Shown piece by piece: positions 1 through 32,312 of a DNA stretch of 41,505 nucleotides. The stretch is from a virus, in IMG/VR virus record IMGVR_UViG_3300008259_002692, positions 1-41,505 of that record; one strand, given 5' to 3'. Position 1 is the stretch's first letter, and each line of letters opens with the position of its first letter. The position numbers and the translations under genes were made by a program. The notes under the pieces are model-generated. The model saw only the letters and a program-made list of their open reading frames with translations. It was not told the origin of the DNA and ran no database searches.

Positions 1-816
1 GTGGCGGAAGGCTATAATTTAGGTGGTCTAGAACAAGGCAAGTATTATCTTCACAGCATATACCAGAACAGTCAAATTTTTATGGATCCTGTATCAGGCG
101 ACCCTATGTCATTTGACAATTATGATGAAGCAGAAAGTTTCCACAATGGATTGGGCGGCAGAGAGCATGACGAATATCAAGTATCAGTATTCAACCAAGG
201 AAAGTTACTACCCGCAGATCAAGGTGTGGCGGAAGGTTTCGATAATGATCCCACAGGACCTGCAACATGGAACGGCCATAGAGTCGTTGCTAATAGAAGA
301 ACTCCTAAAGGAGATTTTCTAATACTTCAAAATAAAAACGACGGCAAATACGAAATTCATAAACAAAATCCCGGCGTTGTTGGGGGCTTAGAGTTTGTGT
401 CCGTCCATAAAACTCCTGATGAGATGCAGTCTGCTTTTAAGAAATTAACTGGTATTGACGAAAGCAATCAAGGTGTGGCGGAGGCTTCACCACGTGTGGA
501 TTCGCTTGTTACTGATGCACTAAAAATAATGCGTGGTGCAGAAGTAAGTGATGCTGTATCAGCATTAAAGACTGTGCTGGGCGATAGAGAATACAACAGT
601 CGCCGTGGCCATTACAATTTCTATGTTAGACAACTGATGGATATGTATAATCAGCAAGATATAGCGGAAGGCAGCGAGTTTGGTGCTTACTACCATGAGC
701 AATTGGCACAAAAAGTCTCAACGCCGAAGACTTTGCTGGCGACTTTGTTAGTGCCTACACCTGGCTACAAAAGCAAGCGAAAGATAAAAAAATTACCAAG
801 GAGACGCAAGCCGTGA
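1..816 (+). CDS. Polyprotein-like virion/internal protein with repeated VAE(G/A) sites (5'-partial, frameshifted)
   Basis: The reading frame is open from the first base, so the true start is probably upstream. Four (V/I)-A-E-(G/A) motifs lie at 1-12, 226-237, 475-486 and 661-672 and separate three unrelated-looking globular segments of about 62-83 residues. The DNA around the second and third motifs is a 16-base exact repeat (218-233, 467-482). T4-type prohead protease gp21 cuts after Glu in (L/I)-x-E-(A/G), so the motifs fit processing sites; this is inference. The frame breaks near 710-715: after that point the +3 frame continues a sensible protein into the next entry, and the lysine/arginine-rich tail read here to 816 is an artefact. 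The sequence of the segments does not reveal their function. Most likely a capsid-internal or structural protein. Confidence 0.6.
   Translation: MAEGYNLGGLEQGKYYLHSIYQNSQIFMDPVSGDPMSFDNYDEAESFHNGLGGREHDEYQVSVFNQGKLLPADQGVAEGFDNDPTGPATWNGHRVVANRRTPKGDFLILQNKNDGKYEIHKQNPGVVGGLEFVSVHKTPDEMQSAFKKLTGIDESNQGVAEASPRVDSLVTDALKIMRGAEVSDAVSALKTVLGDREYNSRRGHYNFYVRQLMDMYNQQDIAEGSEFGAYYHEQLAQKVSTPKTLLATLLVPTPGYKSKRKIKKLPRRRKP
709..722 (+). other. Frameshift point in an A-run between the two polyprotein reading frames
   Basis: Five A residues at 710-714 mark where the frame starting at 1 stops looking protein-like and the frame ending at 2069 begins to. Read continuously, HEQLAQK joins SLNAEDFAGDF and on to the frame used from 813. 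One extra A would restore a single open frame of about 689 residues. There is no canonical X-XXY-YYZ slippery heptamer in the zero frame (A-CAA-AAA), so a homopolymer sequencing or assembly error, or a natural one-base deletion, is likelier than programmed -1 frameshifting. Confidence 0.6.
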
Positions 817-2069
817 CTGACAACAGTTTAGGTTATAAAAACACACTAGCAGTCATGAAGGCTGCGGACAGCAGTCAAGAAGCCACCATAAACCTAGGTG
901 ATGAACCTGTTACGCTGGACTATCCAGAAGCACGTTTCATTGCTGGCAAATACAAAGCATTCCTCCGTGCAGGACGGCAGGAAGAATTCTTTGGCCTAAT
1001 GGCTAATCCTGCCAAGTTTGATGGCATGATGAAACAGTTGCGGGGACTTGTTGACAAGCAGAAAAACTTCAAAGGTAGCGTGCCTGGTGATCGCGGAGTT
1101 CCTGGTGAAACTCAAACTCCTTGGATTCGCGAAGGAGTAGACAATGACAGTCCGGTAGCAGGTGCTATTACTCATCGTATCATGATTCAACGTCATGATT
1201 TACTCAGCAAATACGGCCCTGCAAAAGTCATGGCCGCCATTGATGATGTTGCTGACTTTGTAGGCGACGTTGAAGAAATTGGTAGCAGTGATGTAAGTGC
1301 TTGGGTTAAACAAGTTGAACAATCATTGGCCGGCATGGGAGAGAGCGAACTTGACGAAGGGTGGAAAGAAAAGTTAGGTGCGGCCGCACTAGCAGGCACA
1401 TTGGCATTTGGAGCCGCAGGTAACGCTATGGCTCGTGTTACTCCTGACGGTCAAGGTGGCTACACTGGTGGCAAGCCTGTGGCAACTCAAATGGCTCCAG
1501 CCGCTACTCAGGCCGCACAACCTGGTGCTGAAATGCCTGGTAAAAATTTACAAACAGTTGACAACATAGAAGGCAACAAGTCCAGCGGCTATACCATCAC
1601 TCAAGATGGCAAGTCATATGATGTCAAAGTAGTGCCCAAAGGTTCGCCTACTCCCAGAGGCGCTAAAATGATGAAGGTAAGTCAAGCACAAGTTGGCGAA
1701 CGAGGTATTGGAAATTATGTGGTATATTTGCTCAACAGCGGAACAGCATATCTTTACATGGGCGGTAGCGTTTCTGAATCCATGAAACTAATAGGCAAGC
1801 ATGGCGAAGGCGCCAAAACTGCCAAGGTCTACAAGGATCACGAGTGGGGCGAATTCCGTGTCAAGTTCTACACTGACGGCAAGCACGAAGGCGAAGAAGC
1901 AGACTATCACACCGATGACCGAAGCGATGCCAACGATACTGCTAAAAGTTGGACTACCAAAGGTGAGAAAGTTGCTGAGTCAACTTACTGGTGCAGACAA
2001 GAAAAAACAAGAAAACTCATTCCCGAAGGCTATAAGAAAACAGCCCAGGGCTACATTACAAAAGTATAA
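813..2069 (+). CDS. C-terminal part of the punctuated polyprotein, with internal signal-peptide-like segment
   Basis: The GTG at 813 is probably not a true start: the same frame is open and protein-like from about 711, continuing the upstream entry. Further protease-like motifs are IREG (1125-1136), LDEG (1350-1361), VAES (1971-1982) and IPEG (2019-2030). Between them lie a charged domain (813-1130), a helical domain (1137-1345) and a domain of about 200 residues (1362-1970). Directly after LDEG comes WKEK, a run of about 15 small hydrophobic residues and GNAMA, which looks like a signal peptide or membrane helix, followed by a Pro/Ala/Gln-rich linker. The last 13 residues would be released by the IPEG site. 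Late gene, nine bases before a radical SAM gene. Exact role unknown. Confidence 0.6.
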   Translation: MTDNSLGYKNTLAVMKAADSSQEATINLGDEPVTLDYPEARFIAGKYKAFLRAGRQEEFFGLMANPAKFDGMMKQLRGLVDKQKNFKGSVPGDRGVPGETQTPWIREGVDNDSPVAGAITHRIMIQRHDLLSKYGPAKVMAAIDDVADFVGDVEEIGSSDVSAWVKQVEQSLAGMGESELDEGWKEKLGAAALAGTLAFGAAGNAMARVTPDGQGGYTGGKPVATQMAPAATQAAQPGAEMPGKNLQTVDNIEGNKSSGYTITQDGKSYDVKVVPKGSPTPRGAKMMKVSQAQVGERGIGNYVVYLLNSGTAYLYMGGSVSESMKLIGKHGEGAKTAKVYKDHEWGEFRVKFYTDGKHEGEEADYHTDDRSDANDTAKSWTTKGEKVAESTYWCRQEKTRKLIPEGYKKTAQGYITKV

Positions 2070-2077
2070 GGACCACA

Positions 2078-3385
2078 ATGGCTTTTTGTAGACTTCCTTG
2101 GCAAGGGCTGATGATCACTCCATTGGGTGACTTCCGCCTTTGTGCATTGACCAACAGCAAAGAAATGAATCAGGGCATGGCCACCGACGAAAACGGCCAA
2201 CTCATGAACATCATGACTCACACTCCCAACCAAGGCCTAAACGGCAAGTGGCACAGGATGGTGCGACTAAATGATGTCAAAAATGCAGGTGACTGGCATG
2301 ACATTTGCTCCTGCTGTGAAGACAGAGAAATTGCCACAGGCGGTGACCCAAAACATATTGCTGCCAGTCGCCGTCAAAGCATGGAACGCAGAAATCCCAG
2401 CAGAGACATTGTAAATCCTGACAACTATCAATCTGTTGACATGGATGAAAATGGCTATGTAAAATGGAATCCAACCACTCTGGATATACGTTTTGGCAAC
2501 CTTTGCAACATGAAGTGTGTGCATTGTGGCCCCAACTACTCCAACATGTGGTATGATGACTGGGTTGGACACTATGGCATGAATGCTCCTTGGGGGTTTG
2601 GTCATCGCCAAATCAGATTGGAACGCAATCAGCACGGAAAGATCGTCAACCCCAAAGAAGTCAAGTGGTGGGAAAGCGATATTTGGTGGCAAAAGTTTGA
2701 TGAGATGTTGCCTACCTTGGAGCACATTTATCTCACCGGCGGTGAACCCATGATTGTGCCTGCACACGATGAAATGCTGGATCGTATTATTGCCAGTGGC
2801 CGTGCCCGAGAAATTTACCTAGACTACGACAGCAATCTGTCAGTGGTCAACGACAAAATTGCACGTCGTTGGGAACACTTCAAGCATGTAGAAATTGCTG
2901 GCAGTATGGATGCCAGCCACGAACACTATGAATTCATTCGTAGTGGCGGCAAGTGGGACACATTTAGCAATAACGTAAAACGCATCAAAGAATATGAAAA
3001 AAATGGAGTGGTAAAACTCTATCGCTTGACCAGTTGCACACAGCCTTCAACACTCTACACCATGCTACGCTCAGAAGAGTGGTGTGCAGAAGTAGGCGTG
3101 CCTTTTCAGGTGCGCTTTATTGACAGCCCACTGATGCACAGTATCATGAGTCTACCTAAATCAGCCAAAGAAGAAGTCATTGAATACTATTCACACCACG
3201 ACACAGTGACATCAAGATTGATCCAAGAATGGACTCGTGAACACTTGGATGAAAAATATGAGCATCCTGAGGATGTCAAAAAGTATGTTCAACTCATGGA
3301 CTACTTGGACGGTGCCAGAGGCACACGCTGGAGAGAAATCATTCCAGAAACATGGAGCCTAATCAGTAGGCATTGTAAACTTTGA
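2078..3385 (+). CDS. Radical SAM enzyme with N-terminal SPASM/twitch-like cysteine module
   Basis: The radical SAM cluster motif CNMKCVHC (C143, C147, C150) binds a [4Fe-4S] cluster and SAM, and YLTGGEP follows as the SAM-binding segment. Ahead of the core is a cysteine set (C4, C22, C77, C80) around PW and a glycine-rich turn, resembling half of a SPASM/twitch auxiliary-cluster domain, but N-terminal instead of the usual C-terminal place. It is a clear paralogue of the minus-strand gene at 9181-10548: both share LCNMKCV, WYDDW, DIWWQ, TGGEP, SAKEE and a C-terminal MD-LD-R-T-WR pattern. The ATG at 2078 has AAGGA about six bases upstream. Substrate unknown; related families modify peptides or sugars. 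Confidence 0.85.
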   Translation: MAFCRLPWQGLMITPLGDFRLCALTNSKEMNQGMATDENGQLMNIMTHTPNQGLNGKWHRMVRLNDVKNAGDWHDICSCCEDREIATGGDPKHIAASRRQSMERRNPSRDIVNPDNYQSVDMDENGYVKWNPTTLDIRFGNLCNMKCVHCGPNYSNMWYDDWVGHYGMNAPWGFGHRQIRLERNQHGKIVNPKEVKWWESDIWWQKFDEMLPTLEHIYLTGGEPMIVPAHDEMLDRIIASGRAREIYLDYDSNLSVVNDKIARRWEHFKHVEIAGSMDASHEHYEFIRSGGKWDTFSNNVKRIKEYEKNGVVKLYRLTSCTQPSTLYTMLRSEEWCAEVGVPFQVRFIDSPLMHSIMSLPKSAKEEVIEYYSHHDTVTSRLIQEWTREHLDEKYEHPEDVKKYVQLMDYLDGARGTRWREIIPETWSLISRHCKL

Positions 3386-3395
3386 GGATTGAAAT

Positions 3396-4016
3396 ATGTT
3401 GACACTAGAAATATTGCAAGAATGCTTGCCCAAGGCAAAGGTATCTAAATTAGAAGAATTCATTGAAGGTTTCAATGAAACCTTTGATACTTTTGAAATG
3501 AGCACACCTGAGCGCCAGGCCATGTTTTTGGCGCAGACTGCACACGAGTCAGGCAACTTTAACTTCACTGAAGAAAACCTGAACTACAAGGCAGCGAGCC
3601 TGAGCAAAATTTGGCCAAAAAAGTTTCCGCCAGACATTGCTGGTCAATACGGAGGCAAAGCAGAAAAGATTGCTAATCGCGCTTACTGTGACCGTATGGG
3701 CAATGGCAACGAAGCATCAGGCGACGGCTTCAAGTATCGTGGTCGTGGTATCATCCAACTCACAGGCAAGGACAACTATCGTGCCTGCGGCGACGCTCTA
3801 GGTGTTGACCTATTGGCAGAACCAGATCTAGTGGCCAAGAATCCTTATGCTGTGCTGAGTGCAGGATGGTTCTGGGAAACACGCAAACTCAACCAATGGT
3901 GTGACAAAGGTGATATTCTAACTGTTACCAAACGTATCAATGGCGGAACCATTGGTTTGGAAGATCGTAAACATCACTACGAGCACATTCTTGAAGTTCT
4001 AAAAAATCATTCTTAA
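3396..4016 (+). CDS. GH19-family endolysin (chitinase-like lysozyme)
   Basis: This 206-residue protein carries glycoside hydrolase family 19 hallmarks: AHESGNF with the catalytic Glu near residue 51, TEENLNY with a second acidic pair near 59-60, the [10 protein letters not shown] loop and a C-terminal RINGG segment. Phage GH19 enzymes of this size are peptidoglycan hydrolases that degrade the cell wall at lysis. No signal peptide or membrane segment is seen, so release would need a holin; none is recognised next to it. A GAGG ribosome site precedes the ATG. It lies among late genes, as expected for lysis. Confidence 0.85.
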
Positions 4017-4029
4017 AAGGAATAACACA

Positions 4030-4764
4030 ATGGGCAAGATTTTACGGTTAGGAAAAACTCCTTCAGACAATCAGACTGGAAGCAGTGGCGGTGCCGCTGT
4101 CACAAAGAACATCTCAGGTGAATACAGCCCATTCAACGCTCCCAATGCTAGTTTGACAATAGGCACAGCAGGCAGCGGAAACAATTTGTTTCTGTGGGGG
4201 ACCAACAGCAGTGAAGACAATGTGGAGCAAGAGATTGCTGACTTGGCTTCTGCGTTGGGAGTGACCACTGCCAACCTGGTTGGTGTGTCTATTACCAGCC
4301 CTAACTTGCCCGCAGGTGCCACAATTCGTGGCGTAGGTAGATGGAATAGAGGCTACACCAATGGTATTAGTCCGGCAATCTGGGCCAGTTCAGCACTGAC
4401 TGGATCAGCCAGTGGAACTGTCACGTTTGGAGGAATCGTATCTGCTTCTTCTATCACTGCTAGACTACCAGCGGCTTCCACAACCAAGTCCATCACTGGA
4501 TTCAAAGCAATCAATGACTATAAGTTTCGTGTTATCAATGCCGACGGTGTTGGAACATGTCAACTGACAGCGTCTGCACCTGGTGCTGGTGAAATGAGCA
4601 TGATCGCCACTGACTCCACTGGCAACACCTACTATGTTACCAGGTTGCACGAAAATCATGCTTGGATCACTCGCAAGACTGGTAGTTCATACCAATTTGC
4701 TTCAGGCAAAAAAGTAAAATGGAATGAGATTGCCGCAGTGGCCGGAACCACAGTCAAGATCTAA
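4030..4764 (+). CDS. Putative virion structural protein
   Basis: A 244-residue protein rich in Gly, Ser, Thr and Ala, with short alternating hydrophobic stretches that suggest beta structure, and no signal peptide, helix-rich region or catalytic motif. Such composition is typical of phage decoration, tail or fibre proteins. It follows the endolysin by 13 bases with AAAAGGA as ribosome site and is the last gene before a strong terminator, which fits an abundant late product. I do not recognise a named family, so the call rests on composition and position. Confidence 0.45.
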   Translation: MGKILRLGKTPSDNQTGSSGGAAVTKNISGEYSPFNAPNASLTIGTAGSGNNLFLWGTNSSEDNVEQEIADLASALGVTTANLVGVSITSPNLPAGATIRGVGRWNRGYTNGISPAIWASSALTGSASGTVTFGGIVSASSITARLPAASTTKSITGFKAINDYKFRVINADGVGTCQLTASAPGAGEMSMIATDSTGNTYYVTRLHENHAWITRKTGSSYQFASGKKVKWNEIAAVAGTTVKI

Positions 4765-4782
4765 TCAACTGGTAATTCAACT

Positions 4783-4806
4783 AAAAGGGCGGCAACGCCC
4801 TTTTCT
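4783..4806 (+). terminator. Rho-independent terminator with GCAA tetraloop
   Basis: A perfect nine-base-pair stem (4783-4791 with 4796-4804) closes a GCAA loop of the stable GNRA class and runs into a T-rich tract (4801-4809). The run of A on the left arm also makes it a plausible terminator on the minus strand. It separates the structural gene from the late promoter that follows. Confidence 0.92.
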
Positions 4807-4821
4807 TTTATCTACCTACAT

Positions 4822-4829
4822 TATAAATA
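4822..4829 (+). promoter_or_regulatory. T4-late-type promoter box TATAAATA
   Basis: An exact match to the T4 late promoter consensus, which occupies -13 to -6 and is read by the gp55 sigma factor. This spacing puts +1 at 4835, the A of the next gene's ATG, predicting a leaderless transcript. It sits just after the terminator, where a new transcription unit is expected. Confidence 0.75.
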
Positions 4830-4834
4830 TCCCA

Positions 4835-6211
4835 ATGCAATATACTAGAACTAGAAATCCTGCCAGCGTTCCTACCAATTGGGCAGGTTTTGATCGCACC
4901 GAAAAGAAAGTTCGTAATACTGACCCAATAATCTTTTATTGCGATCATCGTGGCATGGAATTAGACAACATTCATACCATGAATAGATTTTTAATGCAAG
5001 ATATTCCTACACGTGACGGAACCATTGATCGCCTTAACTTTACACATCATCCATTGATAGACGTCGGTGTGTTAGAAGACATTGAACGCGGTGTAGAAAT
5101 ACGCACCTTCAAGGATGGCATTTTGCCTGGCAGAGACAGTATCATACACATTGGTCTAATGAGTGGTTGGACCCAAGAAAAACTCAATAATATTTCACGC
5201 TGGCTTAATCAGCCCAATCGTCGAGCATTGCTGGATGATCCTAGATGTCACATTGTGTTGGACTATAGTTTAGAAGGTTTTACAGACTACGCCTACGATG
5301 ACATTTGGTCCTGGATTGAACAAAACTTTCTACACGAACGTGTGATCTATGTCAGTGGTGCCAGTAACTGTGAAGAAATATATCGAAGATGGTGCAGTTA
5401 TAATCGTGTTCAACCAAACATGCGATGTGCTTGGTATGGTTTTTTTGCTGACTGGGTAGCAAGACGTGTGCCCAAAGACAAAACCTTGGCAGTGAATTAC
5501 AAACCTGGCAGTAAAAGAATCATGTGCTTGAATCGTCGACCGCACGAACATCGCATGCTGTTGGCCGCCATGATTGAACGCAACCATTTAACTGAAAAAA
5601 TTGCACTGAGTTTTCCTCGCGGACTCAATGAAGATCAAGACTACCAATTGCCAGGCTATGACAATGTTGGCCGTTTATGGAAAAAGTTTTGTCGTAAAAG
5701 CGATGGCTGGCTAGATTACCTAACCCCTGCTTGGCAATCACTGGAAGAAAAACTGCCATTGGTTGCCGACACCAGTGACTTTGATACCAATCATGCAGGT
5801 GATTTGAATATTGGACTGTATGAACAATACCCTGTCAACGTCATCACTGAAACTATATTCTTTACACGTGGAACTTTTCCCAGTGAAAAAATCTGGAAGC
5901 CCATTGCCATGGGTCAAATTTTTATCCCCATGGCAGGCAGTTTCTTTTTGCGAGAGTTACGAAAAATGGGCTTTGAAACTTTTAGCCCTTGGATCAACGA
6001 AGACTACGATACCATAGATGATGATCACGACCGTGCCACTGCCATTGTTGCAGAAATGCGTAGGCTTGTGGAAATGCCCGAGCACGAATTTGTGGAATTG
6101 TTGAGCCAGTGTCAAACTCGTATTCAGCATAATCAAAGACTATTTTTGGAAAGAAACAATTTACAGAAGATTGTGGCACAGCAGTTTCTTGACAAGGTCA
6201 ATGCCATATGA
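4835..6211 (+). CDS. Putative glycosyltransferase-like protein (SEKIWKP motif)
   Basis: I place the start at ATG 4835 (458 residues); the open frame extends upstream, but only across the terminator and promoter. The C-terminal half has ITETIFF, PSEKIWKPIAMGQIFI and an LRELRKMGFET stretch. This E-K-I-x-K-P-I-x-x-G layout resembles the nucleotide-sugar-binding part of exostosin/fucosyltransferase-like GT-B enzymes. The same motif recurs in the gene at 11458-12672, so the two are distant paralogues. No SD sequence precedes the ATG, in keeping with leaderless initiation. It opens the sugar island and overlaps the next gene by four bases. Donor and acceptor are unknown. Confidence 0.5.
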   Translation: MQYTRTRNPASVPTNWAGFDRTEKKVRNTDPIIFYCDHRGMELDNIHTMNRFLMQDIPTRDGTIDRLNFTHHPLIDVGVLEDIERGVEIRTFKDGILPGRDSIIHIGLMSGWTQEKLNNISRWLNQPNRRALLDDPRCHIVLDYSLEGFTDYAYDDIWSWIEQNFLHERVIYVSGASNCEEIYRRWCSYNRVQPNMRCAWYGFFADWVARRVPKDKTLAVNYKPGSKRIMCLNRRPHEHRMLLAAMIERNHLTEKIALSFPRGLNEDQDYQLPGYDNVGRLWKKFCRKSDGWLDYLTPAWQSLEEKLPLVADTSDFDTNHAGDLNIGLYEQYPVNVITETIFFTRGTFPSEKIWKPIAMGQIFIPMAGSFFLRELRKMGFETFSPWINEDYDTIDDDHDRATAIVAEMRRLVEMPEHEFVELLSQCQTRIQHNQRLFLERNNLQKIVAQQFLDKVNAI

Positions 6212-6990
6212 AAAACGTCCGCAAGTTCAAGCGATTGTTTACATTTGGGTGCAGTTTTACACAGTATCATTGGCCAACTTGGGCTGACATATTAGGCAAT
6301 GACGCAAACTATTTTGAAAATTGGGCTTTGGCCGGTGGCGGCAATGATTTCATCTTAAACAGACTGGTTGAATGTAATCAACGCAACAGATTGACCAAGG
6401 ACGATCTGGTCATGATTATGTGGAGTGGTGTCACAAGAGAAGATCACTATAATGAATTCTGGCAATTGCGTGGCAATATCTATACTTGTCACGATGCAGG
6501 TGACATTTTAAAAAATCGAAGTCCACAAGGTTATTTGCTTAAATCATTGAACTACATTGCCGCGGCCAAATCAATATTGGATTCCATTGGTTGTGAATAT
6601 CATTTTTTAAGTATGCTACCCATTGGGGCCTTGGAATTTGACGCACAACAGCCCAATAGTGAAATGTTGGATCTATATCAAGATGTGTTATCAAGCGTCA
6701 AGCCCAGCGTGTTTGAGGTGGTCTATGACTGTGATTGGTCCAGCACCGAGCCCAAAGTTTGGTTAAACTTTAATGGACGTCAAGGATACGATCCTCATCC
6801 TGCGCCATCACTGCACTTGGAATATTTGATGAAAACCTTTCCAGATTTAAGATTAAGTAAAAGCACGAAAGTTTTTGTTGAGTCTTGGACTCAACGGGTG
6901 GTAAATTTGACACGTGAAGAACACGACAAAATTATTGATCCTATAGGGCGTGGTAGATTATTCCCGTTACCTAAAATTAAAGCATTTTAA
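6208..6990 (+). CDS. SGNH/GDSL-like hydrolase
   Basis: The N-terminal FGCSFT matches the block I nucleophile Ser motif of SGNH hydrolases (GDS, here GCS), AGGGND resembles block III with its oxyanion Asn, and DPHPAPSLH supplies the catalytic Asp-x-x-His near the C terminus. Members remove acyl or acetyl groups from sugars and lipids. The ATG overlaps the upstream stop (ATGA). Position between a glycosyltransferase-like gene and a UDP-sugar dehydrogenase suggests de-O-acylation or acyl transfer on a glycan; this is inference. No signal peptide, so it probably acts in the cytoplasm. Confidence 0.65.
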   Translation: MKNVRKFKRLFTFGCSFTQYHWPTWADILGNDANYFENWALAGGGNDFILNRLVECNQRNRLTKDDLVMIMWSGVTREDHYNEFWQLRGNIYTCHDAGDILKNRSPQGYLLKSLNYIAAAKSILDSIGCEYHFLSMLPIGALEFDAQQPNSEMLDLYQDVLSSVKPSVFEVVYDCDWSSTEPKVWLNFNGRQGYDPHPAPSLHLEYLMKTFPDLRLSKSTKVFVESWTQRVVNLTREEHDKIIDPIGRGRLFPLPKIKAF

Positions 6991-6998
6991 GGAGCGTC

Positions 6999-8225
6999 AT
7001 GAAAGTAGCAATGATTGGATGTGGCAAACTGGGTTTGCCTTGTGCAGAAGTAATGAGTCAACACTATGATGTTGTTGGTTATGATGTAGCACCTGACCCT
7101 ACAGCACAAATACCAATGGTCAACACTATTGCAGAAGCAGTGGCCGGCAGAGATTTGATTTTCGTTGCTGTGCCAACTCCTCATGATCCTGCATACGGTG
7201 GTAGCAGTCCCATTGCCGACATGCCTCCCAAAGACTTTGACTATTCAATTGTGCGTCATGTGTTGCGCGATATCAATCCGCATGTTAATCGTAGTCAATT
7301 GGTGGTGTTGATTTCCACTGTGCTACCAGGAACTGTGCGTGAATACCTGGCGCCCAACATTACCAACGCACGTTTCATTTACAATCCTTATCTGATTGCC
7401 ATGGGTAGTGTCAAATGGGACATGGTCAACCCAGAGTGTTTGATCATTGGCACCGAAGATGGTGCTGAAACCACTGATGCCAAACTACTGGTAGATTTTT
7501 ATCGCCCGCTAATGGAAAACAGTCCTACCATCAACATTGGCAATTGGGACGAAGCCGAAGCAATTAAGATTTTCTACAACACCTTTATCAGTGCCAAAAT
7601 TGGGTTGGTCAACATGATTCAAGACGTTGCTGAAAGCAATGGCAACATCAATGTTGATGTTGTCACTGACGCACTCAAACGTGCCACACAGCGCATTACA
7701 GGACCACGTTATCTCACCGCAGGCATGGGTGATGCTGGTGCTTGCCATCCCAGAGACAACATTGCCTTGCGTTGGTTGGCACGAAAACTAGACCTTGGCT
7801 ACGACCTATTCCATGCTATCATGCACAGTAGAGATCAGCAAGCGGCTCGTATGGCCAAAAAGTTAGTGGCACTACATCACGAAACTTGCTTGCCTGTGGT
7901 AATTCACGGTCGGGCCTACAACCCTTATGTGCCCTATACCATTGGCAGTTACAGTGAACTGGTAGGACACTTCGTTGAAAAGGCCGGAGTTGCTGTGCAG
8001 TATGCAGACCCACTGACCAATGACATCATCAATGGTCCTGTCAAGTGTGTGGTGTTGATGGCACACAATGCTGGTATCACATATTCTGGCACAGGAGTCA
8101 ACGTCCAACCAGAATCGTTCTATTTTGAAATTGCTGAAGGTAGCGTAATCCTAGACCCCTGGAGAACAACGCCTGACATCAATGGTGTTCGCGTTATACA
8201 CTACGGTAACCCAAGAAAAGTCTAA
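6999..8225 (+). CDS. UDP-glucose/GDP-mannose dehydrogenase family protein
   Basis: It oxidises the C6 hydroxyl of a nucleotide sugar to a uronic acid with two NAD. Seen here: N-terminal Rossmann motif GCGKLG, the VAVPTP segment, central dimerisation helix region, and GDAGACHPRD containing the catalytic Cys (C249). At 408 residues it is full length, including the C-terminal UDP-binding domain. AAGGAG precedes the ATG. It ends overlapping the converging minus-strand gene by four bases. A second, shorter family member lies at 30402-31178. The exact sugar cannot be told from sequence. Confidence 0.85.
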   Translation: MKVAMIGCGKLGLPCAEVMSQHYDVVGYDVAPDPTAQIPMVNTIAEAVAGRDLIFVAVPTPHDPAYGGSSPIADMPPKDFDYSIVRHVLRDINPHVNRSQLVVLISTVLPGTVREYLAPNITNARFIYNPYLIAMGSVKWDMVNPECLIIGTEDGAETTDAKLLVDFYRPLMENSPTINIGNWDEAEAIKIFYNTFISAKIGLVNMIQDVAESNGNINVDVVTDALKRATQRITGPRYLTAGMGDAGACHPRDNIALRWLARKLDLGYDLFHAIMHSRDQQAARMAKKLVALHHETCLPVVIHGRAYNPYVPYTIGSYSELVGHFVEKAGVAVQYADPLTNDIINGPVKCVVLMAHNAGITYSGTGVNVQPESFYFEIAEGSVILDPWRTTPDINGVRVIHYGNPRKV

Positions 8226-9181
8226 GTTCTGTCTGGCGCCCGTTTGTTGACTGCTAAATCTGCAGGATGTATACAAATTTCAAACGAGCAGGTGCCAGAC
8301 TGCTCTAATAATTTGAAATTGTCTAGGCGCCCTAGGTTTTGATATTTGCAAATACTGGTCCACACTTGACCATCGTAGTTGACATTGATGCTGTCAATTC
8401 CTACATCGCAACTCCATCCATTGAACCGATTTAGTCCTTCAAGTTTGAGTTTTGTTTCGGACAACAATTTGAGTGGACTTGACTTTCCGTCGTCAAAGAT
8501 AGCCAATGATGTATAAGGATTAAAAATACTCTTGTTTTTTAAGAACAAGGATTGATGACGTTTCATCCATGCCTGTTGTTCTTCGTTGTAGTTGGATACA
8601 TGTCTATTCCTGATCTGAGCCTTGTCATGCACAGGCCAACAGATGATGCAGTTATTAAAACGCTGATCTATCATGTCATACATTTTTACAACCGAGTCCC
8701 AGTTACTGGGGTCGCATACTAGATTGAATTGAAGATCAACGTCGTTGTCAGCCAAGTAATGACACAGTTCATTGAGTTGAGGCAGTTTGTTAACATACTC
8801 GTTGTGCAAACTAAAAGTGCAACCCGACGGCAATTCTTCTAGACTCTTCCACCACTTTAGTGGTCTACTACCATTGGAATTGATACCAATGATTCCATAG
8901 GGCTTTAGCCGTTTAATGATTGTGGAAAACATTGGATGAACTGTGGGCTCGCCACCTGACAATGTTAACCAAAGTGTTCGTCCACGCAGATTCTCAATGA
9001 CCAAGTCAATGAAACGATTGATTTCGTCATCTGTGGGATAGCCGTCTCTGCGACCCATAGCGTAGTCACCTGAATGCAAGTGATCAGGACAGTAACTACA
9101 TTTCCAATTGCAAAAATCAGTTAAATGCCAGAATACATAGAACACTGGTTGCTTACGCTGAATAGCAACAATCTTAGACAT
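8222..9181 (-). CDS. Radical SAM protein, single-cluster type
   Basis: A 319-residue protein with the radical SAM motif CNWKCSYC (C24, C28, C31) and LTLSGGEPTVHP, the SAM-binding GGE element. Additional cysteines near the C terminus (GWSCDVG, SICKYQ, SFEICIHP) are spaced like a degenerate SPASM auxiliary-cluster domain, following a typical NVNYDGQVW strand. Last gene of the minus-strand block; its ATG overlaps the stop of the upstream gene (TAATG), indicating translational coupling. Substrate unknown. Organelle-like class assignment is not possible by eye. Confidence 0.8.
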   Translation of the reverse strand: MSKIVAIQRKQPVFYVFWHLTDFCNWKCSYCPDHLHSGDYAMGRRDGYPTDDEINRFIDLVIENLRGRTLWLTLSGGEPTVHPMFSTIIKRLKPYGIIGINSNGSRPLKWWKSLEELPSGCTFSLHNEYVNKLPQLNELCHYLADNDVDLQFNLVCDPSNWDSVVKMYDMIDQRFNNCIICWPVHDKAQIRNRHVSNYNEEQQAWMKRHQSLFLKNKSIFNPYTSLAIFDDGKSSPLKLLSETKLKLEGLNRFNGWSCDVGIDSINVNYDGQVWTSICKYQNLGRLDNFKLLEQSGTCSFEICIHPADLAVNKRAPDRT

Positions 9182-10548
9182 TAGAGACCCTCAATGAGGT
9201 TAGGGTCACAATGTTTCTTGAGCAGGTCATAAACATCACTGAGTGTTGTCCTCCACGACGTGTTTCTACGCTGGTCGAGAATATCCATGCAACGAACAAA
9301 CTCATTTAACTTTTCATAGTCGGGTTCGGCATCAATATACTTGTTGAGCAAGTTGATGATGGCTTTGAACCATTTTAAATCTCTAGGTTCTTGGCTGGGA
9401 TGATTCTGATAACGTTCAATGATTTCTTCTTTGGCAGACCTTGGCAGATACCTCATGTCTAGCCATTTAGGACCTTCTAAGAATCTAAACTCAGTGGGCA
9501 CATTTAATTCTTTGGCCACTTCACTGACACGCATCATTGCATAAGGTGTAGCAATACCAATGCAACTGCTGATGTATTCGATGGGAATGCCATGTTCTTT
9601 TAATATTTTGATATTCTCAACAAACTTACTGTAGTTGCCAGGATATCTAATCAACTCGTATCTGTCACCAATGTCATCAACGCTGACACACATGATAATG
9701 TCTTGAAATTTTTTGAGTTTTTCAAGCACACGCTTGTGAATCACTGTTAGGTTAGTGTCAAATCGCAATTGAATCTTGTGTGCTACACCAGCGGCAATCA
9801 TCTTGTCAAGGCAAGTTTCTAAAGCAGGCACTAGGAACGGTTCGCCTCCGGTGAAATAGATGTAGCGCAGTTGATGAACAATTTCATCAAAGCGTTGCCA
9901 CCAAATGTCAGTTTCCCACCACGGTTGCATGTTAGACACTGACAACTTATTGTGTCTTTCAGGGTCAGGTGTAATGTAGTAGGTCTTGTAGCGGCCCAAT
10001 TTAAAAATAGGTTCGCCATCGTAGTAATCCATTGCCAACCAATCATCATACCATAAATGACTGTGTTGAGGACTGCACATCACACATTTCATATTGCAAA
10101 GGTTGCCAAAACGCAGATGTAAATTGACCAACGGTGCTGTAGATGAACCATCTTCCTGTGTAAACAAATGTGCATTGTTGACATTGACATATCCACCAGT
10201 GGTTTTAGAAGTAGCCCAAATTACACGCTGACGCTTGCTACGGCCGCCGCCTTTGCTACGATTCCATTCATCTAGACCACGAGTAGAATCTTCTGCGTCA
10301 TAGCAGTTTCTACAACGTTGTGGTTTTTCATTGAGAGACAATTGAAGCCGTTGTTCTCTGTGAGTTTTGCTGTTCAGTGCATCACGAAAACTGTGTGTCA
10401 ATACATTCATGACCTGATCGTTTTCGTCGTGTGCCATGCCAAAATCTTTGTCATAGTTGGCCAAGCAACAAATTGAGTATTCTCCGGCAAAGGAGATTTC
10501 AATTTGACTCCAGGGCTCTGGGCAAAAACTTTCTGGTTTAAATTCCAT
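9181..10548 (-). CDS. Radical SAM enzyme with N-terminal SPASM/twitch-like cysteine module (paralogue of 2078-3385)
   Basis: I choose the ATG at 10548 (455 residues), preceded by a GAGAG ribosome site, over one 42 bases upstream. The radical SAM motif is CNMKCVMC (C151, C155, C158), followed by YFTGGEP. The N-terminal module carries C9, C27, C28, C79 and C82 around EPW and NYD, as in the paralogue at 2078. Shared landmarks are LRFGNLCNMKC, WYDDW, DIWWQ and LPRSAKEE. It lies between a nitronate monooxygenase-like gene and another radical SAM gene on the minus strand. A peptide or sugar modification role is possible, but nothing identifies the substrate. Confidence 0.85.
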   Translation of the reverse strand: MEFKPESFCPEPWSQIEISFAGEYSICCLANYDKDFGMAHDENDQVMNVLTHSFRDALNSKTHREQRLQLSLNEKPQRCRNCYDAEDSTRGLDEWNRSKGGGRSKRQRVIWATSKTTGGYVNVNNAHLFTQEDGSSTAPLVNLHLRFGNLCNMKCVMCSPQHSHLWYDDWLAMDYYDGEPIFKLGRYKTYYITPDPERHNKLSVSNMQPWWETDIWWQRFDEIVHQLRYIYFTGGEPFLVPALETCLDKMIAAGVAHKIQLRFDTNLTVIHKRVLEKLKKFQDIIMCVSVDDIGDRYELIRYPGNYSKFVENIKILKEHGIPIEYISSCIGIATPYAMMRVSEVAKELNVPTEFRFLEGPKWLDMRYLPRSAKEEIIERYQNHPSQEPRDLKWFKAIINLLNKYIDAEPDYEKLNEFVRCMDILDQRRNTSWRTTLSDVYDLLKKHCDPNLIEGL

Positions 10549-10558
10549 GTTACTCTCT

Positions 10559-11521
10559 TTAGTTGTTTGTTTGTCCAAACAAACGTTCAATGATGATATT
10601 TACCGGGAGGATTTCTGTGATTGAGTTTATGCCATGTCCTGCAAAAACGTGTCCTTGGTTGCCAGTTTTAATACCTGCTCTCAGACTCATGGTGTTGTTT
10701 TCAGTGTCTGGGCGATCAAATTTGCCTAACCTCAATGCATTTTGTTTTAGATTGTCTGTGTTGAGTTTTGTCAAGTCAGCGTTACCTGCACCAATCATTT
10801 TTAGTTTTGTTGCTTCAGACACAGGACTTTCCTGGCTGGCAGCAAATAGCGTGCCAGCACCAATGGCCGTGACTCCTAGGTCCAGCAATTGTTTAACATC
10901 CTGGGCATTGCCAACACCACCTACAGCAATAATTGGAATATTGGGATAGTGTTCCTGTGCCCAAACAATCATTTGTTCCAATGATAGATCAGTGTCCATC
11001 ACCCGGCCAGCACTCTTGGGTCCTTTAATTGAGAAAGCATCTACGTGACTTAGACCCGAATCCCAAAAACACCAATTTTCTATATCGTCGAACAATGAAA
11101 CTACTTTTAATATAAGTTTGACGTCTTGACTTTGTAGATAAGTCATCCAATGGTTAATCTTGGCCAACACCACAGGATCACGACGATGTTCTTCAACAGT
11201 AATAATCTCCAGGTGGCTGATTTTAAATTCTCGAATTAGGTCAATGACTTTGGGTGCATTGCTTTGAATAAATGTTGTGTCCAAACTTAGAATAAAATTG
11301 CAATTTCCGACAGCGTCTTGGAATCTTTGAAATTCTGATCGAGCAAGATCCCAACCCATTACGCCTTTGGCAACAAAGTAGTTGAATAGGCTGACACTGG
11401 GGAAGCCACCGGCTTGAGCCACTGCAATGGCCAAGTTGATGTCAGACACCTGGTTCATTGCATAGCATTGCGCCCAATGGTAGCACTTATTGGATTGTGG
11501 CTCATGACCGAGGTATTGCAT
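10559..11521 (-). CDS. Nitronate monooxygenase-like / NPD-family flavoprotein
   Basis: TIM-barrel protein of 320 residues. Near the N terminus, YAMNQVSDINLAIAVAQAGG corresponds to the apM-x-x-VS...LA-x-AV-x-x-AGG start of 2-nitropropane dioxygenases; the C-terminal half has IIAVGGVGNAQDV and GVTAIGAGTLF, the FMN phosphate-binding strands, then a helix with AGNADLTKL and GHGINSI. Family members oxidise nitronates with FMN, and some relatives act on other small carbon acids. The ATG at 11521 is preferred because a start at 11458 would lose the first barrel strand. Its 5' end overlaps the divergent gene at 11458 by 64 bases, so the promoter must lie inside that gene. Confidence 0.65.
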   Translation of the reverse strand: MQYLGHEPQSNKCYHWAQCYAMNQVSDINLAIAVAQAGGFPSVSLFNYFVAKGVMGWDLARSEFQRFQDAVGNCNFILSLDTTFIQSNAPKVIDLIREFKISHLEIITVEEHRRDPVVLAKINHWMTYLQSQDVKLILKVVSLFDDIENWCFWDSGLSHVDAFSIKGPKSAGRVMDTDLSLEQMIVWAQEHYPNIPIIAVGGVGNAQDVKQLLDLGVTAIGAGTLFAASQESPVSEATKLKMIGAGNADLTKLNTDNLKQNALRLGKFDRPDTENNTMSLRAGIKTGNQGHVFAGHGINSITEILPVNIIIERLFGQTNN

Positions 11522-12672
11522 TCAGAGATGCTTTAACCAACCAAGGTGTTGAATGCTGTGTCAGCACCGAATATCAACAGCCCGGAGTCTACATTGTTGA
11601 TGTAAATGGTGGACCAGCATTGTGGACAGGCATGTCATTGCTTTCAGGGTTCAAAACCACGAATGTCCTAGATCTACTACCAGATCATGTTTTGGCAGGT
11701 CTTAGGGATAGAAAGATCAAATTGGTATTGCTGGCCTGGGCCGAAGGACATAGATTCGTAGTTGATTCTGTTGTGAATAAACTTCGCCCTGACATGTATG
11801 GTTGCAACTATGATGCTTTCAGTGAAATACATTCTAAAGCCAAAGAAAAAAGTATACCAATAGAACAGATTATAATTGTTCATGGTAACCATCGCGTCAA
11901 ACAAGAATATCAGCAGTGGTGTCAAGATCACAGTATTGCAACACGGTTGACTGTGACACCTGGTTTGAAGTTCTTTTCTATATTCAATCCTCAGGCCAAA
12001 TCAAACTCCACAGTATTGATTGAAAATGCCGTGTCAAACACACAGGCTCGAGACTTCAACAGTTTGAATAGAATTGTTAAAGTTCATCGCAATGATCACT
12101 TTTATGAACTGATTGCTCGCGGACTACTAGAACACGGACATGTCAGCGGTCAACTGGGTGATTACCATTCTCCTTTGTTTATTGACAGCGACCTAGAGCA
12201 ATGGCAATCTACAGTAAGGCCTCATTTTCCTAGACATATAGACATCAAAGACTTTGAGATAAATCCTGCTGACAACTTTAACCCTTGGATATATGAAAAT
12301 AGTTTGCTGACTGTGATAACGGAAACACACTTTGAAGATGACATTACGTTCTTAAGTGAAAAGATCTTCAAGCCAATCAGTGCAGGGCATCCATTTATTG
12401 TGTTGGGAAATTCAGGCACACTTGCAGTTTTAGAGTCGCTGGGATTTAAAACCAACTTCTGTGGTCTCGGTGCCGACTATGATAAAATTACAGATCCACT
12501 CCAGCGATTTCGGCGTGTGCATGATCTCTTGAGTTATTGGGTGAACCTGCCTAGAGCAACAAAGATAAATTTAATTTGTGCTAGTTTACCCAGCATCCGA
12601 CACAATTTTGAACTGTATCGTAAACTAGATTTTACCAAGGAAATGATAGATGAAATTAAAAGACTCCACTAA
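11458..12672 (+). CDS. Putative glycosyltransferase-like protein (SEKIFKP motif), paralogue of 4835-6211
   Basis: About 400 residues. Near the C terminus, TVITETHF, LSEKIFKPISAGHPFIV and LESLGFKT parallel ITET, SEKIWKP and MGFET of the gene at 4835, supporting common descent and a GT-B nucleotide-sugar-binding region. The start is uncertain: no ATG is in frame near the 5' end; TTG 11458 or GTG 11497 are candidates, without a good ribosome site. If 11458 is right, its 5' end overlaps the divergent flavoprotein gene. The 3' end overlaps the next gene by 23 bases. Acceptor unknown. Confidence 0.5.
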   Translation: MHSIAPNGSTYWIVAHDRGIAFRDALTNQGVECCVSTEYQQPGVYIVDVNGGPALWTGMSLLSGFKTTNVLDLLPDHVLAGLRDRKIKLVLLAWAEGHRFVVDSVVNKLRPDMYGCNYDAFSEIHSKAKEKSIPIEQIIIVHGNHRVKQEYQQWCQDHSIATRLTVTPGLKFFSIFNPQAKSNSTVLIENAVSNTQARDFNSLNRIVKVHRNDHFYELIARGLLEHGHVSGQLGDYHSPLFIDSDLEQWQSTVRPHFPRHIDIKDFEINPADNFNPWIYENSLLTVITETHFEDDITFLSEKIFKPISAGHPFIVLGNSGTLAVLESLGFKTNFCGLGADYDKITDPLQRFRRVHDLLSYWVNLPRATKINLICASLPSIRHNFELYRKLDFTKEMIDEIKRLH

Positions 12673-13432
12673 TGTAGTTGTGATATCGGGAGGGTTTGAC
12701 CCAATTCACGCTGGCCATGTGGCAATGATCAAAGCGGCACGTTCTCTAGGTCAATACCTTATTGTGGGAGTCAACAGCGATGCTTGGTTGGAACGCAAGA
12801 AAGGTCGTGCTTTCATGCCCTGGCATCACAGAGCCTCTGTAATCCGTGCCATGCTGGGTGTCAATGATGTTTTGAGTTTTGATGATTCGGATGGTTCAGC
12901 CTGCGACCTATTAGAAAAAGTAAAACTACAATTTCCCACCAGTCACATTGTGTTTGCCAATGGCGGTGATAGAACCGCACAAAATATTCCAGAGATGTCA
13001 ATCAAAGACGTTGAGTTTCGCTTTGGTATTGGTGGTGAGGACAAACTGGGTAGTTCCAGTGATTTTCTCAGAGAGTGGAAAGAGCCCACAACGCCTAGGC
13101 CTTGGGGCGAATATCGTGTGCTATACCAAGGCGGCGAAATGACCAGGCTGACCAAAGTCAAAGAACTCACAGTTGAACCAGGGCAACGTTTGTCAATGCA
13201 AAGACATCGTAATCGCAATGAATTATGGTTTGTTGTTTCAGGCATGTGTGATGTTTATTCGTCTATGCCCAGCGGCTACACACTACCGCCAAGAACGCTA
13301 GGTCCACATGAAACTGTGGAAATACGAGCCAATGAGTGGCACCAGTTGACCAATCCTTATAATGGACCTTGTCGCATAGTAGAGATCCAATTTGGATCTG
13401 AGTGCGAAGAATCTGACATAGAACGTCGTTGA
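12650..13432 (+). CDS. Nucleotidyltransferase-cupin fusion (sugar nucleotidyltransferase plus ManC/type II PMI-like cupin)
   Basis: Residues about 8-143 form a cytidylyltransferase-fold domain: GGFDPIHAGHV with the HxGH nucleotide-binding motif, a VNSDAWLERKKGR loop and SSSDFLREW equivalent to the ISSTxxR motif, most like heptose-1-phosphate or glycerol-3-phosphate enzymes. From about residue 147, RPWGEYRVL, PGQRLSMQRHRNRNE and LWFVVSG match the cupin of type II mannose-6-phosphate isomerases (C-terminal part of ManC). The metal-binding His and Glu pattern is present. The fusion could join activation of a sugar phosphate with its isomerisation. The final stop lies inside the -35 box of the following promoter. 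Confidence 0.75.
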   Translation: MKLKDSTNVVVISGGFDPIHAGHVAMIKAARSLGQYLIVGVNSDAWLERKKGRAFMPWHHRASVIRAMLGVNDVLSFDDSDGSACDLLEKVKLQFPTSHIVFANGGDRTAQNIPEMSIKDVEFRFGIGGEDKLGSSSDFLREWKEPTTPRPWGEYRVLYQGGEMTRLTKVKELTVEPGQRLSMQRHRNRNELWFVVSGMCDVYSSMPSGYTLPPRTLGPHETVEIRANEWHQLTNPYNGPCRIVEIQFGSECEESDIERR

Positions 13433-13457
13433 CCACTCAACGATTTTGTGCTACACT
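13429..13457 (+). promoter_or_regulatory. Sigma70-type promoter for dsbA
   Basis: TTGACC at 13429-13434, a 17-base spacer and TACACT at 13452-13457, preceded by TGC as an extended -10. The -35 box contains the TGA stop of the upstream gene. Predicted +1 near 13464 leaves a leader of about 29 bases with a GGAG ribosome site before ATG 13493. Confidence 0.75.
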
Positions 13458-13492
13458 TACTACTGTAATCCTTTAACCCACGGAGAATCATT

Positions 13493-13744
13493 ATGAGTTT
13501 TACACCTGAACAAGTTGCTAAGTTGACAAAAGTAATCCAAGAAGGCGTCCAAGTCAAGCGTGAGATCGACGATCTCAATGTTGGACTCAAGGAAACAGTA
13601 GCGGCCATTGCCGAAGAAATGGACATCAAGGCCGCTGTGCTTAACAAGGCCATTACCAAAGCATTCAAGGGCGACTTTGAAAAAGATCAAACAGATCTTG
13701 AGGCTGTTGAAGAAATCCTTATCGTAACTAAAAACAAGGTCTAA
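13493..13744 (+). CDS. dsbA: DsbA-like double-stranded DNA-binding protein
   Basis: An 83-residue, mainly helical, charged protein. The pattern of an N-terminal helix, a central KETVAAIAEEMDI, an LNKAITKAFKGDF segment and an acidic C-terminal VEEILIV closely follows T4 DsbA (89 residues; K-D-I...AKDELGV...FN...HKDNRD), a protein that binds dsDNA near late promoters and can modulate late transcription. The assignment rests on recalled similarity and size. It has its own sigma70-type promoter, which suggests early or middle expression, and it is not next to rnh as in T4. Confidence 0.65.
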   Translation: MSFTPEQVAKLTKVIQEGVQVKREIDDLNVGLKETVAAIAEEMDIKAAVLNKAITKAFKGDFEKDQTDLEAVEEILIVTKNKV

Positions 13745-13746
13745 TC

Positions 13747-13971
13747 ATGCATGACGATGGCTACACTTGGACCATAGATGACAATGAACCTATGATCATG
13801 GTCATCAAGCACTACGGTGCCACTGTCATGCGTATCTTCCTTGGCGAAGCCATAGAGTCTGCAGGACGAGAACAAGTCATGCGGCATGTGCGAGAGTGCG
13901 ATCGTAGTCCATGGCTCAAGCAATGGCGCGAGCATGCTGAAAAAGAGATGGTAGAAAAATTATCACAATGA
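13747..13971 (+). CDS. Hypothetical protein, 74 aa
   Basis: A small acidic/amphipathic protein beginning MHDDGYTWTIDDNEP, with a short beta-like segment and a charged C-terminal helix (KQWREHAEKEMVEKL). No signal peptide, membrane segment or cysteine motif. It follows dsbA by two bases and overlaps the next gene by four bases (ATGA), so it is co-transcribed and probably translationally coupled. I do not recognise the family. Confidence 0.7.
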   Translation: MHDDGYTWTIDDNEPMIMVIKHYGATVMRIFLGEAIESAGREQVMRHVRECDRSPWLKQWREHAEKEMVEKLSQ

Positions 13972-14258
13972 AATCACTATTGGTCAGTGTCAGAGACTAT
14001 GTGCGTCAAGACTGGCAAGAAAACCCTGCACGATGTGTGCTGGAAATAATTGCTTGGGTCATGAGCATTGGCTGTGCTGTGGCCATGGGCGTGACACTAC
14101 CTAATCCACCATTTCTAGTTTTATATCCTATCTTCATTGCTCAGTGTGCAATCTTTGCCTGGGCGGCAAAAACACGTGGTAGCACCGGCATGTTGGCCAA
14201 CTATCTACTGTTGGTGGCCATTGATACAGTGGCGTTGATAAGACTGATAATGCAATGA
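13968..14258 (+). CDS. Small membrane protein, 96 aa, about three TM helices
   Basis: An N-terminal charged stretch (RDYVRQDWQENPAR) precedes hydrophobic segments at about residues 27-45, 49-67 and 75-94, so the protein is probably an inner-membrane protein with two or three crossings. Size and topology would suit a holin or superinfection-type membrane protein, but no family motif decides this and it is far from the endolysin. The ATG overlaps the upstream stop; its own stop overlaps the start of the 37-residue gene that follows. Confidence 0.7.
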   Translation: MKSLLVSVRDYVRQDWQENPARCVLEIIAWVMSIGCAVAMGVTLPNPPFLVLYPIFIAQCAIFAWAAKTRGSTGMLANYLLLVAIDTVALIRLIMQ

Positions 14259-14368
14259 AAAGTGACTGGTCATTTTTGTTAATTGTTGTTGTATTGATGC
14301 TGTTGTTCTGGGGTGAACCAGATTTATTTGATGCAATAAGAGTATACCTAATAAGATTGTTGCAATGA
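14255..14368 (+). CDS. 37-residue single-pass membrane protein
   Basis: The ATG at 14255 overlaps the upstream stop (ATGA), and its own stop at 14366-14368 overlaps the ATG of the next gene in the same way. The product has one hydrophobic segment, FLLIVVVLMLLFW at residues 7-19, and a short charged tail ending in a second amphipathic stretch. The double ATGA coupling and lack of any gap argue that it is real. Function unknown; a regulator or partner of the preceding membrane protein is possible. Confidence 0.6.
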   Translation: MKSDWSFLLIVVVLMLLFWGEPDLFDAIRVYLIRLLQ

Positions 14369-15057
14369 CCCGCGAAGATCAAATTCAACAAGGTAAAGTG
14401 GTTCATGTTGGTTTGAGTTCAACAAAGCAACAGAATAGCATTAAAAAAACTTCCAACGGTTCAATTGATCTTGCACCAGGTGGTGTAGTAGGCGACTATC
14501 ATTTTCAATACAAATTAGATCATGACCTGGATAAGAGATTGAATTTAAATCAATATCCAGAGTTAGACCATCTAATAAAAACACAGGGTGGTAGTGTAAT
14601 ACAAACTCAGCAAATAAGTTTGTATGAAGTTGAAGAAATAAATCGTTTACGTTCGCTTAGACCATACCTAGAAATTTTACAACCTGGTTGGTTAGGAGAA
14701 AACATAACTACCCAAGGCATACGTTTAAATGAAATACGATATGGTAGTATTGTTGTCATCAATGATGTTAGATTAAAAGTTCAGGCAAGGCGTAGTTTTT
14801 GTCGACGAATCTTTGAAGATTTAACAACGATGTCATTACCAGGACCGTATTCGCTTGTGGGAAAGCACATCAATGCCCTAGGAGAAATGCAGATTGGTAT
14901 CATGTGCCAGGTTTTAGATGTTGGTAGCGTTACCGTTGGCAATGCTATTACAGTTTTTCCAAATCCTGATTTGGTTGGTCAACCTTGGAGTAATTTGTCA
15001 ACGCCAGGAGAAGGCCGCACAACACTAGACCGGGTTGAATATTTGCCCAATGAATAA
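14365..15057 (+). CDS. MOSC-domain protein
   Basis: A 230-residue protein with MOSC features: GKVVHVGLS at the N terminus, DLAPGGVVGDYHF (the A-G-hydrophobic-GD-xH segment), QISLYEVEEINRL, PGWLGENITTQGI, GSIVVINDVRLKVQARRSFCRR with the conserved cysteine (R-x-x-C), and KHINALGEMQIGIMC. MOSC domains bind molybdenum cofactor or carry sulfur; YiiM-type members reduce N-hydroxylated bases such as 6-hydroxylaminopurine. Hand counts of two 60-base lines give 35-38% G+C against 43-47% in sampled lines of dsbA and the polymerase, hinting at recent acquisition. Role in the phage is unknown; removal of mutagenic base analogues or sulfur transfer are options. Confidence 0.75.
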   Translation: MTREDQIQQGKVVHVGLSSTKQQNSIKKTSNGSIDLAPGGVVGDYHFQYKLDHDLDKRLNLNQYPELDHLIKTQGGSVIQTQQISLYEVEEINRLRSLRPYLEILQPGWLGENITTQGIRLNEIRYGSIVVINDVRLKVQARRSFCRRIFEDLTTMSLPGPYSLVGKHINALGEMQIGIMCQVLDVGSVTVGNAITVFPNPDLVGQPWSNLSTPGEGRTTLDRVEYLPNE

Positions 15058-25814: not shown

Positions 25815-25817
25815 ACT

Positions 25818-26243
25818 ATGAAAGTGGGATTTACCTGTTCAACATTTGACCTTCTACATGCAGGTCATGTGGCCATGCTACAAGAAGCCAAAACACAATG
25901 TGACTATTTGATTGTTGGCTTGCAAAACGATCCAACACTTGACCGACCCAACAAGAACAGACCAGTGCAGAGTATTGTTGAAAGACAAATGCAACTCAAA
26001 GGCTCTAGGTATGTTGACGAAGTTTGGGTTTACAATACAGAAAAAGATCTAGAAGATCTATTGCTTACCTTGCCTATTGATGTTAGAATACTGGGCGTGG
26101 AATACGAAGGCAAAGAGTTTACTGGCAGAGAAATTTGCCATAAGCGAGGAATTGAACTTTACTTTAATGGTCGAGACCATAGTTTTAGTTCTAGCAGTCT
26201 AAGACGAAGAGTCTATGAATCTGAAGTGGAGAAAACAAAATGA
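25818..26243 (+). CDS. Cytidylyltransferase-family protein (TagD/RfaE-like)
   Basis: 141 residues with GFTCSTFDLLHAGHV, holding the HxGH nucleotide-binding motif, YLIVGLQNDPTLDR, and FSSSSLRRRV corresponding to the ISSTxxR motif. Length and motif order match glycerol-3-phosphate cytidylyltransferase and sugar-phosphate nucleotidyltransferases. It would activate a polyol or sugar phosphate to its CDP or ADP derivative. It follows galE by three bases; a related domain is fused to a cupin at 12650-13432. Confidence 0.8.
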   Translation: MKVGFTCSTFDLLHAGHVAMLQEAKTQCDYLIVGLQNDPTLDRPNKNRPVQSIVERQMQLKGSRYVDEVWVYNTEKDLEDLLLTLPIDVRILGVEYEGKEFTGREICHKRGIELYFNGRDHSFSSSSLRRRVYESEVEKTK

Positions 26244-26764: not shown

Positions 26765-26765
26765 A

Positions 26766-27322: not shown

Positions 27323-27325
27323 GCC

Positions 27326-27343
27326 TGCTACACAAAGGTAGCA
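27326..27343 (+). promoter_or_regulatory. 5'-terminal leader hairpin before folE
   Basis: TGCTAC and GTAGCA form a six-base-pair stem with loop ACAAAG, located at the predicted 5' end of the folE transcript. Hairpins at mRNA 5' ends shield against RNase E and pyrophosphohydrolase. A similar hairpin, also with a GTAGC/GCTAC core, lies at 40533-40553. Confidence 0.5.
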
Positions 27344-27382
27344 ACATTTTCAAAAATCATATCCGCGTAAGGAAGGATAACT

Positions 27383-32311: not shown

Positions 32312-32312
32312 A

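Follow-up and report, generated by a model that had tools for sequence, protein, structure and literature searches.

The window analysed here is a 41.5 kb fragment of viral DNA (41,505 nucleotides; IMG/VR record IMGVR_UViG_3300008259_002692) that opens inside a gene whose own start is missing. The protein of this gene is a chain of small unrelated modules with V-A-E↓G/A linkers between them (the arrow marks the putative cut), which raises the question of what such a chain is made for and why unrelated modules should be joined by almost the same few residues. A first-pass annotation, made from the letters alone, had listed eight hydrophobic-x-E motifs, the VAE ones at segment borders, and had suggested that a prohead protease of the T4 gp21 type releases a string of capsid-internal cargo proteins at these sites. 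All eight motifs are present, four in frame 1 and four in frame 3, within the following arrangement of the gene.

1 to 12, plus strand: linker VAE↓G, truncated by the contig start; the homologue in L274 reads SMAE↓GYNLGG here.
10 to 225, plus strand: module A, 72 residues, unknown fold; the L274 homologue is 79% identical and has a different neighbour.
220 to 237, plus strand: linker QGVAE↓G, CAAGGTGTGGCGGAAGGT, with VAEG at 226–237; motif and DNA repeat.
235 to 468, plus strand: module B; homologues in L275 and L276 have other neighbours.
469 to 486, plus strand: linker QGVAE↓A, CAAGGTGTGGCGGAGGCT, with VAEA at 475–486; motif and DNA repeat.
484 to 657, plus strand: module C, a predicted four-helix bundle with disordered linkers on either side (80 IMG/VR loci, AF2).
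655 to 672, plus strand: linker QDIAE↓G, with IAEG at 661–672; GVAE, GMAE and GVTE in homologues.
670 to 1127, plus strand: module D, split by the frame break; its frame 3 part matches L021 and L057.
706 to 722, plus strand: frame break, where the reading passes from frame 1 into frame 3; a base is missing or extra near AAAAA.
1125 to 1136, plus strand: diverged linker IRE↓G; module E homologues start here behind other linkers.
1134 to 1349, plus strand: module E; homologues in other orders in L005, L007, L014, L060, L071, L080 and others.
1350 to 1361, plus strand: diverged linker LDE↓G; module F homologues start here.
1359 to 2066, plus strand: modules F and G; F has a hydrophobic signal-like start, G a phrog_7884 match.
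1971 to 1982, plus strand: VAES motif; module border unsupported.
2019 to 2030, plus strand: IPEG motif near the C-terminus; module border unsupported.

The motifs had been listed across about 689 residues, but no single frame stays open for 689 codons. The open part of frame 1 (1–816) has VAEG, VAEG, VAEA and IAEG, and frame 3 carries the protein on to 2069 with IREG, LDEG, VAES and IPEG. Considering that frame 1 meets a stop codon at 814–816 and that the protein continues in frame 3 from about 722, one base has been lost or gained near 706–722, where a run of five A adjoins the switch; the break may be either a sequencing error or a real mutation. The first-pass reading had missed this break, as well as the conservation of the linker DNA and its look of a shuffling joint. 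The 16-base exact repeat that it had reported around two VAE motifs was found again (ATCAAGGTGTGGCGGA, at 218–233 and 467–482). As module borders, VAEG, VAEG, VAEA, IAEG, IREG and LDEG are backed by homologous modules, and for the other two of the eight, VAES and IPEG, the homologues gave no border evidence. In the module B homologues of L275 and L276, the borders read GIEEG/GVAEG and GVNE/SVAEG.

Most modules have no known function. The families that could be named include DUF6321, GNAT acetyltransferases, and ParB-like and nucleotidyltransferase domains. Module C is predicted by AF2 to be a compact helical bundle (pLDDT ~80–87) between disordered linkers (pLDDT <50), and its fold found no PDB match by Foldseek. 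For a second module used as bait below, the PDB yielded no relative by sequence and Foldseek nothing significant; in a structural re-alignment, chains of the ADP-ribosyltransferase fold rank first, with Z up to 8.2, which gives a lead towards an ADP-ribosyltransferase-like fold, the model being one of middling confidence (pLDDT 73). Module F begins, directly behind LDE↓G, with a hydrophobic signal-like stretch (window 1359–1440, GWKEKLGAAALAGTLAFGAAGNAMARV) that cutting at this site would make a new N-terminus; a similar start comes after QGVAE in L113 and L119. Module G (1798–1962) matches phrog_7884, of unknown function, with related stretches in 60 Pseudomonas phage records. Farther along, the window contains several radical SAM, UDP-glucose dehydrogenase, heptose adenylyltransferase and other nucleotide-sugar genes (2078–15000 and 24816–33332), which flank a family B DNA polymerase.

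The linker belongs to a family that extends well outside the window. The 17-base pattern CAAGGTGTGGCGGARGS is matched by at least 120 IMG/VR stretches, against 16 for the reversed pattern, and in the fetched loci all 165 linker copies lie in the longest open frame, reading QGVAE followed by G or A. Copies with at most three mismatches are distributed 346:0:1 across the three frames, and the spacings between neighbouring linkers are multiples of three (90:2:2). The carriers are module chains whose internal modules are mostly 50–270 residues long, and the consensus of a multiple alignment of 64 carriers retains little besides the linkers. The match in L101 looks like a chance match. Among the cultured phages of the collection there are chance-level matches only, and no mention of QGVAEG was found in the literature searched. 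A bacterial origin, or copies in chromosomes, was rejected: the GTDB matches (80 of 114 in the longest frame) are mostly isolated single sites, with no phage-like arrays.

Since sequences fetched by the pattern are biased towards the linker, the tests that weigh most, and are cleanest, are those in which the module sequences themselves serve as bait and the linker plays no part in the search. Module C retrieved 80 IMG/VR loci representing 45 distinct contexts, with 38 different upstream sequences. P1 ahead of the module is Glu in 44 of the 45, the exception, SVVE↓G, having the look of an alignment offset; P3 is V, M or I in 44/45, P1' is mostly A, G, S or N, and the other positions vary. With the second bait module, all 28 contexts showed a [V/M/I]-x-E border when inspected by eye, displaced by a few residues. 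Among 75 module homologues without linker DNA, [LIVMF]xE stands exactly at the border in 36, compared to 0–4 at shifted positions, and P1 is Glu in 42 of 72 (background 5%, p = 7e-36). Some module homologues lie directly behind N-terminal MRAQEFVAE, MIIDDLFE or MNINDIITE, and some modules follow an N-terminal start resembling a capsid-targeting sequence (CTS) in one phage and QGVAE in another. Where the flanks are unrelated, only [hydrophobic]-x-E is retained, in agreement with the first-pass expectation that homologues would keep only the sites between segments. Judged by sequence, the hydrophobic-x-E rule of the linkers is close to the motif of T4 gp21, which cuts after L/I-x-E with a preference for L/I at P3 (PMC9026906); unlike that preference, V dominates at P3 of the linkers, and V and M are commoner than L/I.

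The linker is conserved as DNA as well. At 99 GVAE sites that were not picked by DNA, the codons are GGT in 96, GTG in 84 (background 23%) and, for Ala, GCG in 82 (83%; background 11%); among sites fetched by module C, GCG is found in 15 of 19. In contrast, the four-fold sites of gp23 show 38–56% identity between six carrier genomes. GCG and GTG frequencies so far above background could be expected if the linker DNA were kept by some RNA or DNA signal that has nothing to do with exchange (a hairpin, a pause site or a recombinase site, for example). However, the linker has no stable RNA fold (z −0.15), its flanking GAG and CTC do not covary, and a signal of this kind would have to account for the single coding frame of all 165 copies and for the lack of such arrays among the GTDB matches; we regard this explanation as quite unlikely. 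The first 2500 bases of the window gave no Rfam match. A site-specific recombinase may act at the linker.

When cargo genes from different contigs are compared, the homology stops at a linker on both sides of the pair in 27% of cases, against 2.2% at random. Module C has 22 neighbour families upstream and 25 downstream. In the window the modules run C-D-E; L007 has C-E and L014 has E-C. Border tests were used here because single-linkage clustering of the modules merged many of them into one group. Considering that the linker DNA is conserved and that homologous segments begin and end there, the linker also looks like a joint for module exchange. Whole contigs end near linkers in 16 of 31 cases, compared to 2.4 expected; L004, L031, L049, L052 and the start of the window itself are examples. 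Such ends hint at different module arrangements coexisting in one water, from which they would be expected. The excess of contig ends at linkers might also be taken to mean that the mosaic is an artefact of assembly, with short repeats misjoining contigs. This is hardly credible, as the modules adjoining linkers diverge from contig to contig by tens of percent and all copies are in frame, at spacings divisible by three; the breaks suggest that assemblers stop at linkers and do not join across them.

The linker could, in principle, be a recombination joint only, in which case the chains would be long multidomain proteins that stay uncut, and the Glu and the hydrophobic residue would be by-products of shared DNA. 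The very strong nucleotide conservation and the homology ends at linkers fit this reading, and so does P1', which follows the conserved first base G to give G, A, D, E or V; D, E or V are indeed found there in some linkers. However, when the linker DNA has diverged (counted as at least 5 of 15 bases), the Glu at P1 and the hydrophobic residue at P3 persist while P2, P4 and P5 vary, and modules also sit behind CTS ends of different DNA. A joint without a cut site is thus unlikely, and a linker that works at both levels, as a cut site and as a joint, is the reading we carry forward.

Several observations place the chains in a capsid context. A short N-terminal peptide ending in hydrophobic-x-E is found in 58 of 82 cargo ORFs, compared to 180 of 608 other ORFs. 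The starts MRAQEFITE↓G (L105) and MRAQEFVAE↓A (L118) resemble the capsid-targeting start of T4 IPIII, MKTYQEFIAE↓A; these N-termini are those of relatives, the window's own being cut off. Peptidase_S77, the family of the gp21-type protease, was detected in 6 of 48 records, and gp23 in 6 of 18 records tested, the same six, so that in no large record examined for both was gp23 found without the protease (6/6). Half of the records of at least 100 kb gave no S77; gp23 was not detected in these either, so they are probably fragments. The gp21-like protease gene called for by the first-pass annotation is thus present in all six large gp23-bearing relatives, and none was found in the 41.5 kb of the window, itself a fragment, so the case rests on its relatives. 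In all six records gp23 has L-x-E↓S/N just ahead of its presumed mature N-terminus, and their gp22 contains the motif many times, in some as VAEG and VAES. By gp23, the nearest cultured relatives are giant T4-like phages, e.g. Vibrio phage 2.275 and PA5oct. In one class of cargo protein, the N-terminal domain is a homologue of PA5oct gp278, which is annotated as a virion structural protein (ESI-MS/MS), and the two are syntenic, this class following the large terminase gene (terL) in several loci. It is noted that a gp278-like gene or region lies closely behind terL in L110, L010, L093, L106, L080, L047, L051 and L082, and that in most of these eight loci linker-separated modules extend the gp278-like part.

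Cutting by a peptidase domain within the chain, or by a host protease, has also been considered, as proposed for the polyvalent proteins of phages and plasmids, in which several domains are combined and peptidases are embedded (PMC5512222). A HExxH-like stretch in L003 would be in keeping with it. However, no peptidase family was matched among 64 cargo ORFs, and the site is one that suits the prohead protease of the phage itself, the same motif being present in its substrates gp22 and gp23; such cutting is very unlikely.

We propose that the product of the window gene is a polyprotein of capsid cargo from a large T4-like phage, with gp21-type cut sites and module exchange at the linkers, a reading that the sequence comparisons make probable. 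The capsid-internal cargo suggested at first pass gains computational support in this way, and from the N-termini that resemble T4 capsid-targeting sequences. An N-terminal capsid-targeting peptide would bring the chain into the prohead core, where the gp21-type protease would cut each [V/I/L/M]-x-E↓[G/A/S/N] linker behind its Glu. The modules, mostly 50–270 residues, would be freed inside the head and would enter the host along with the DNA, like the T4 internal proteins (IPs) and Alt. The sequences themselves show the modular chains, a linker kept in protein and in DNA, module shuffling at it, CTS-like starts, and protease together with gp23 in one genome; we infer the cutting, the presence of the pieces in the virion, their injection and their role. 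Recombination at the linker DNA AAGGTGTGGCGGAAG, which recurs in frame between unrelated modules, would swap whole modules with reading frame and cut site intact. Identity of the linker may itself drive the exchange, or the common linker may result from the exchange of modules and not cause it. We see about an even chance that the whole is a cassette system in one reading frame, the linker being a recombination joint as DNA and a prohead-protease site as protein, through which a community of large T4-like phages draws on a common stock of capsid cargo modules and recombines them; whatever their order, a single targeting peptide would suffice to package them, and they would be released in the head. 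Little is settled about the means by which phages change their injected proteins, and what T4 IPII and IPIII do is still unsolved (PMC9026906). Uncultured giant relatives of T4 that trade linker-joined pieces would be able to restock their virion cargo. If the proposal is true, it provides a mechanism for rapid restocking of injected proteins and a sequence tag by which candidates for such proteins can be picked out in uncultured phages; it also makes clear predictions that mass spectrometry and in vitro cleavage could address.

We have compared these chains with known systems. In T4-like cyanophages (Kyanoviridae), homologous basic modules are likewise joined in one protein, but the three chains compared (L271, L272, L273) have no GVAEG linker. 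Fragments common to otherwise unrelated phage proteins are familiar from phage domain mosaicism; in the excerpts of that study (PMC10684548) no nucleotide-conserved linker or cut site is named, and the word 'linker' is absent. Polyvalent proteins, known from phages and conjugative elements and suggested to work at an early stage of infection, also combine many unrelated domains in one phage polypeptide, ParB-like and nucleotidyltransferase domains included, but their processing is ascribed to embedded peptidases, whereas the repeated site here fits a prohead protease (PMC5512222). According to excerpts of the accounts of the ejection proteins of the giant phages SPN3US and phiKZ, these phages have many head-internal proteins, some of which are cut after Glu by a gp21-like protease, and one protein can have several sites, as here; those excerpts mention neither a chain of mature modules that become separate proteins nor a DNA linker common to them (PMC5694885, PMC10052503). 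The prohead-protease cleavages described there for SPN3US, the protease's own excepted, remove N-terminal propeptides and do not yield several mature proteins (PMC10052503). A further likeness is to the T4 internal proteins IPI–IPIII and Alt, a fast-changing set of small head proteins with a short N-terminal targeting peptide that ends in hydrophobic-x-E and a T4-type prohead protease (PMC9026906, PMC5694885). Alt is an ADP-ribosyltransferase, and one module here has a predicted fold of that kind. Unlike T4, in which each gene encodes one cargo protein with one targeting peptide, several modules are strung together here, with a putative cut site at each module border and a linker that is conserved as DNA.
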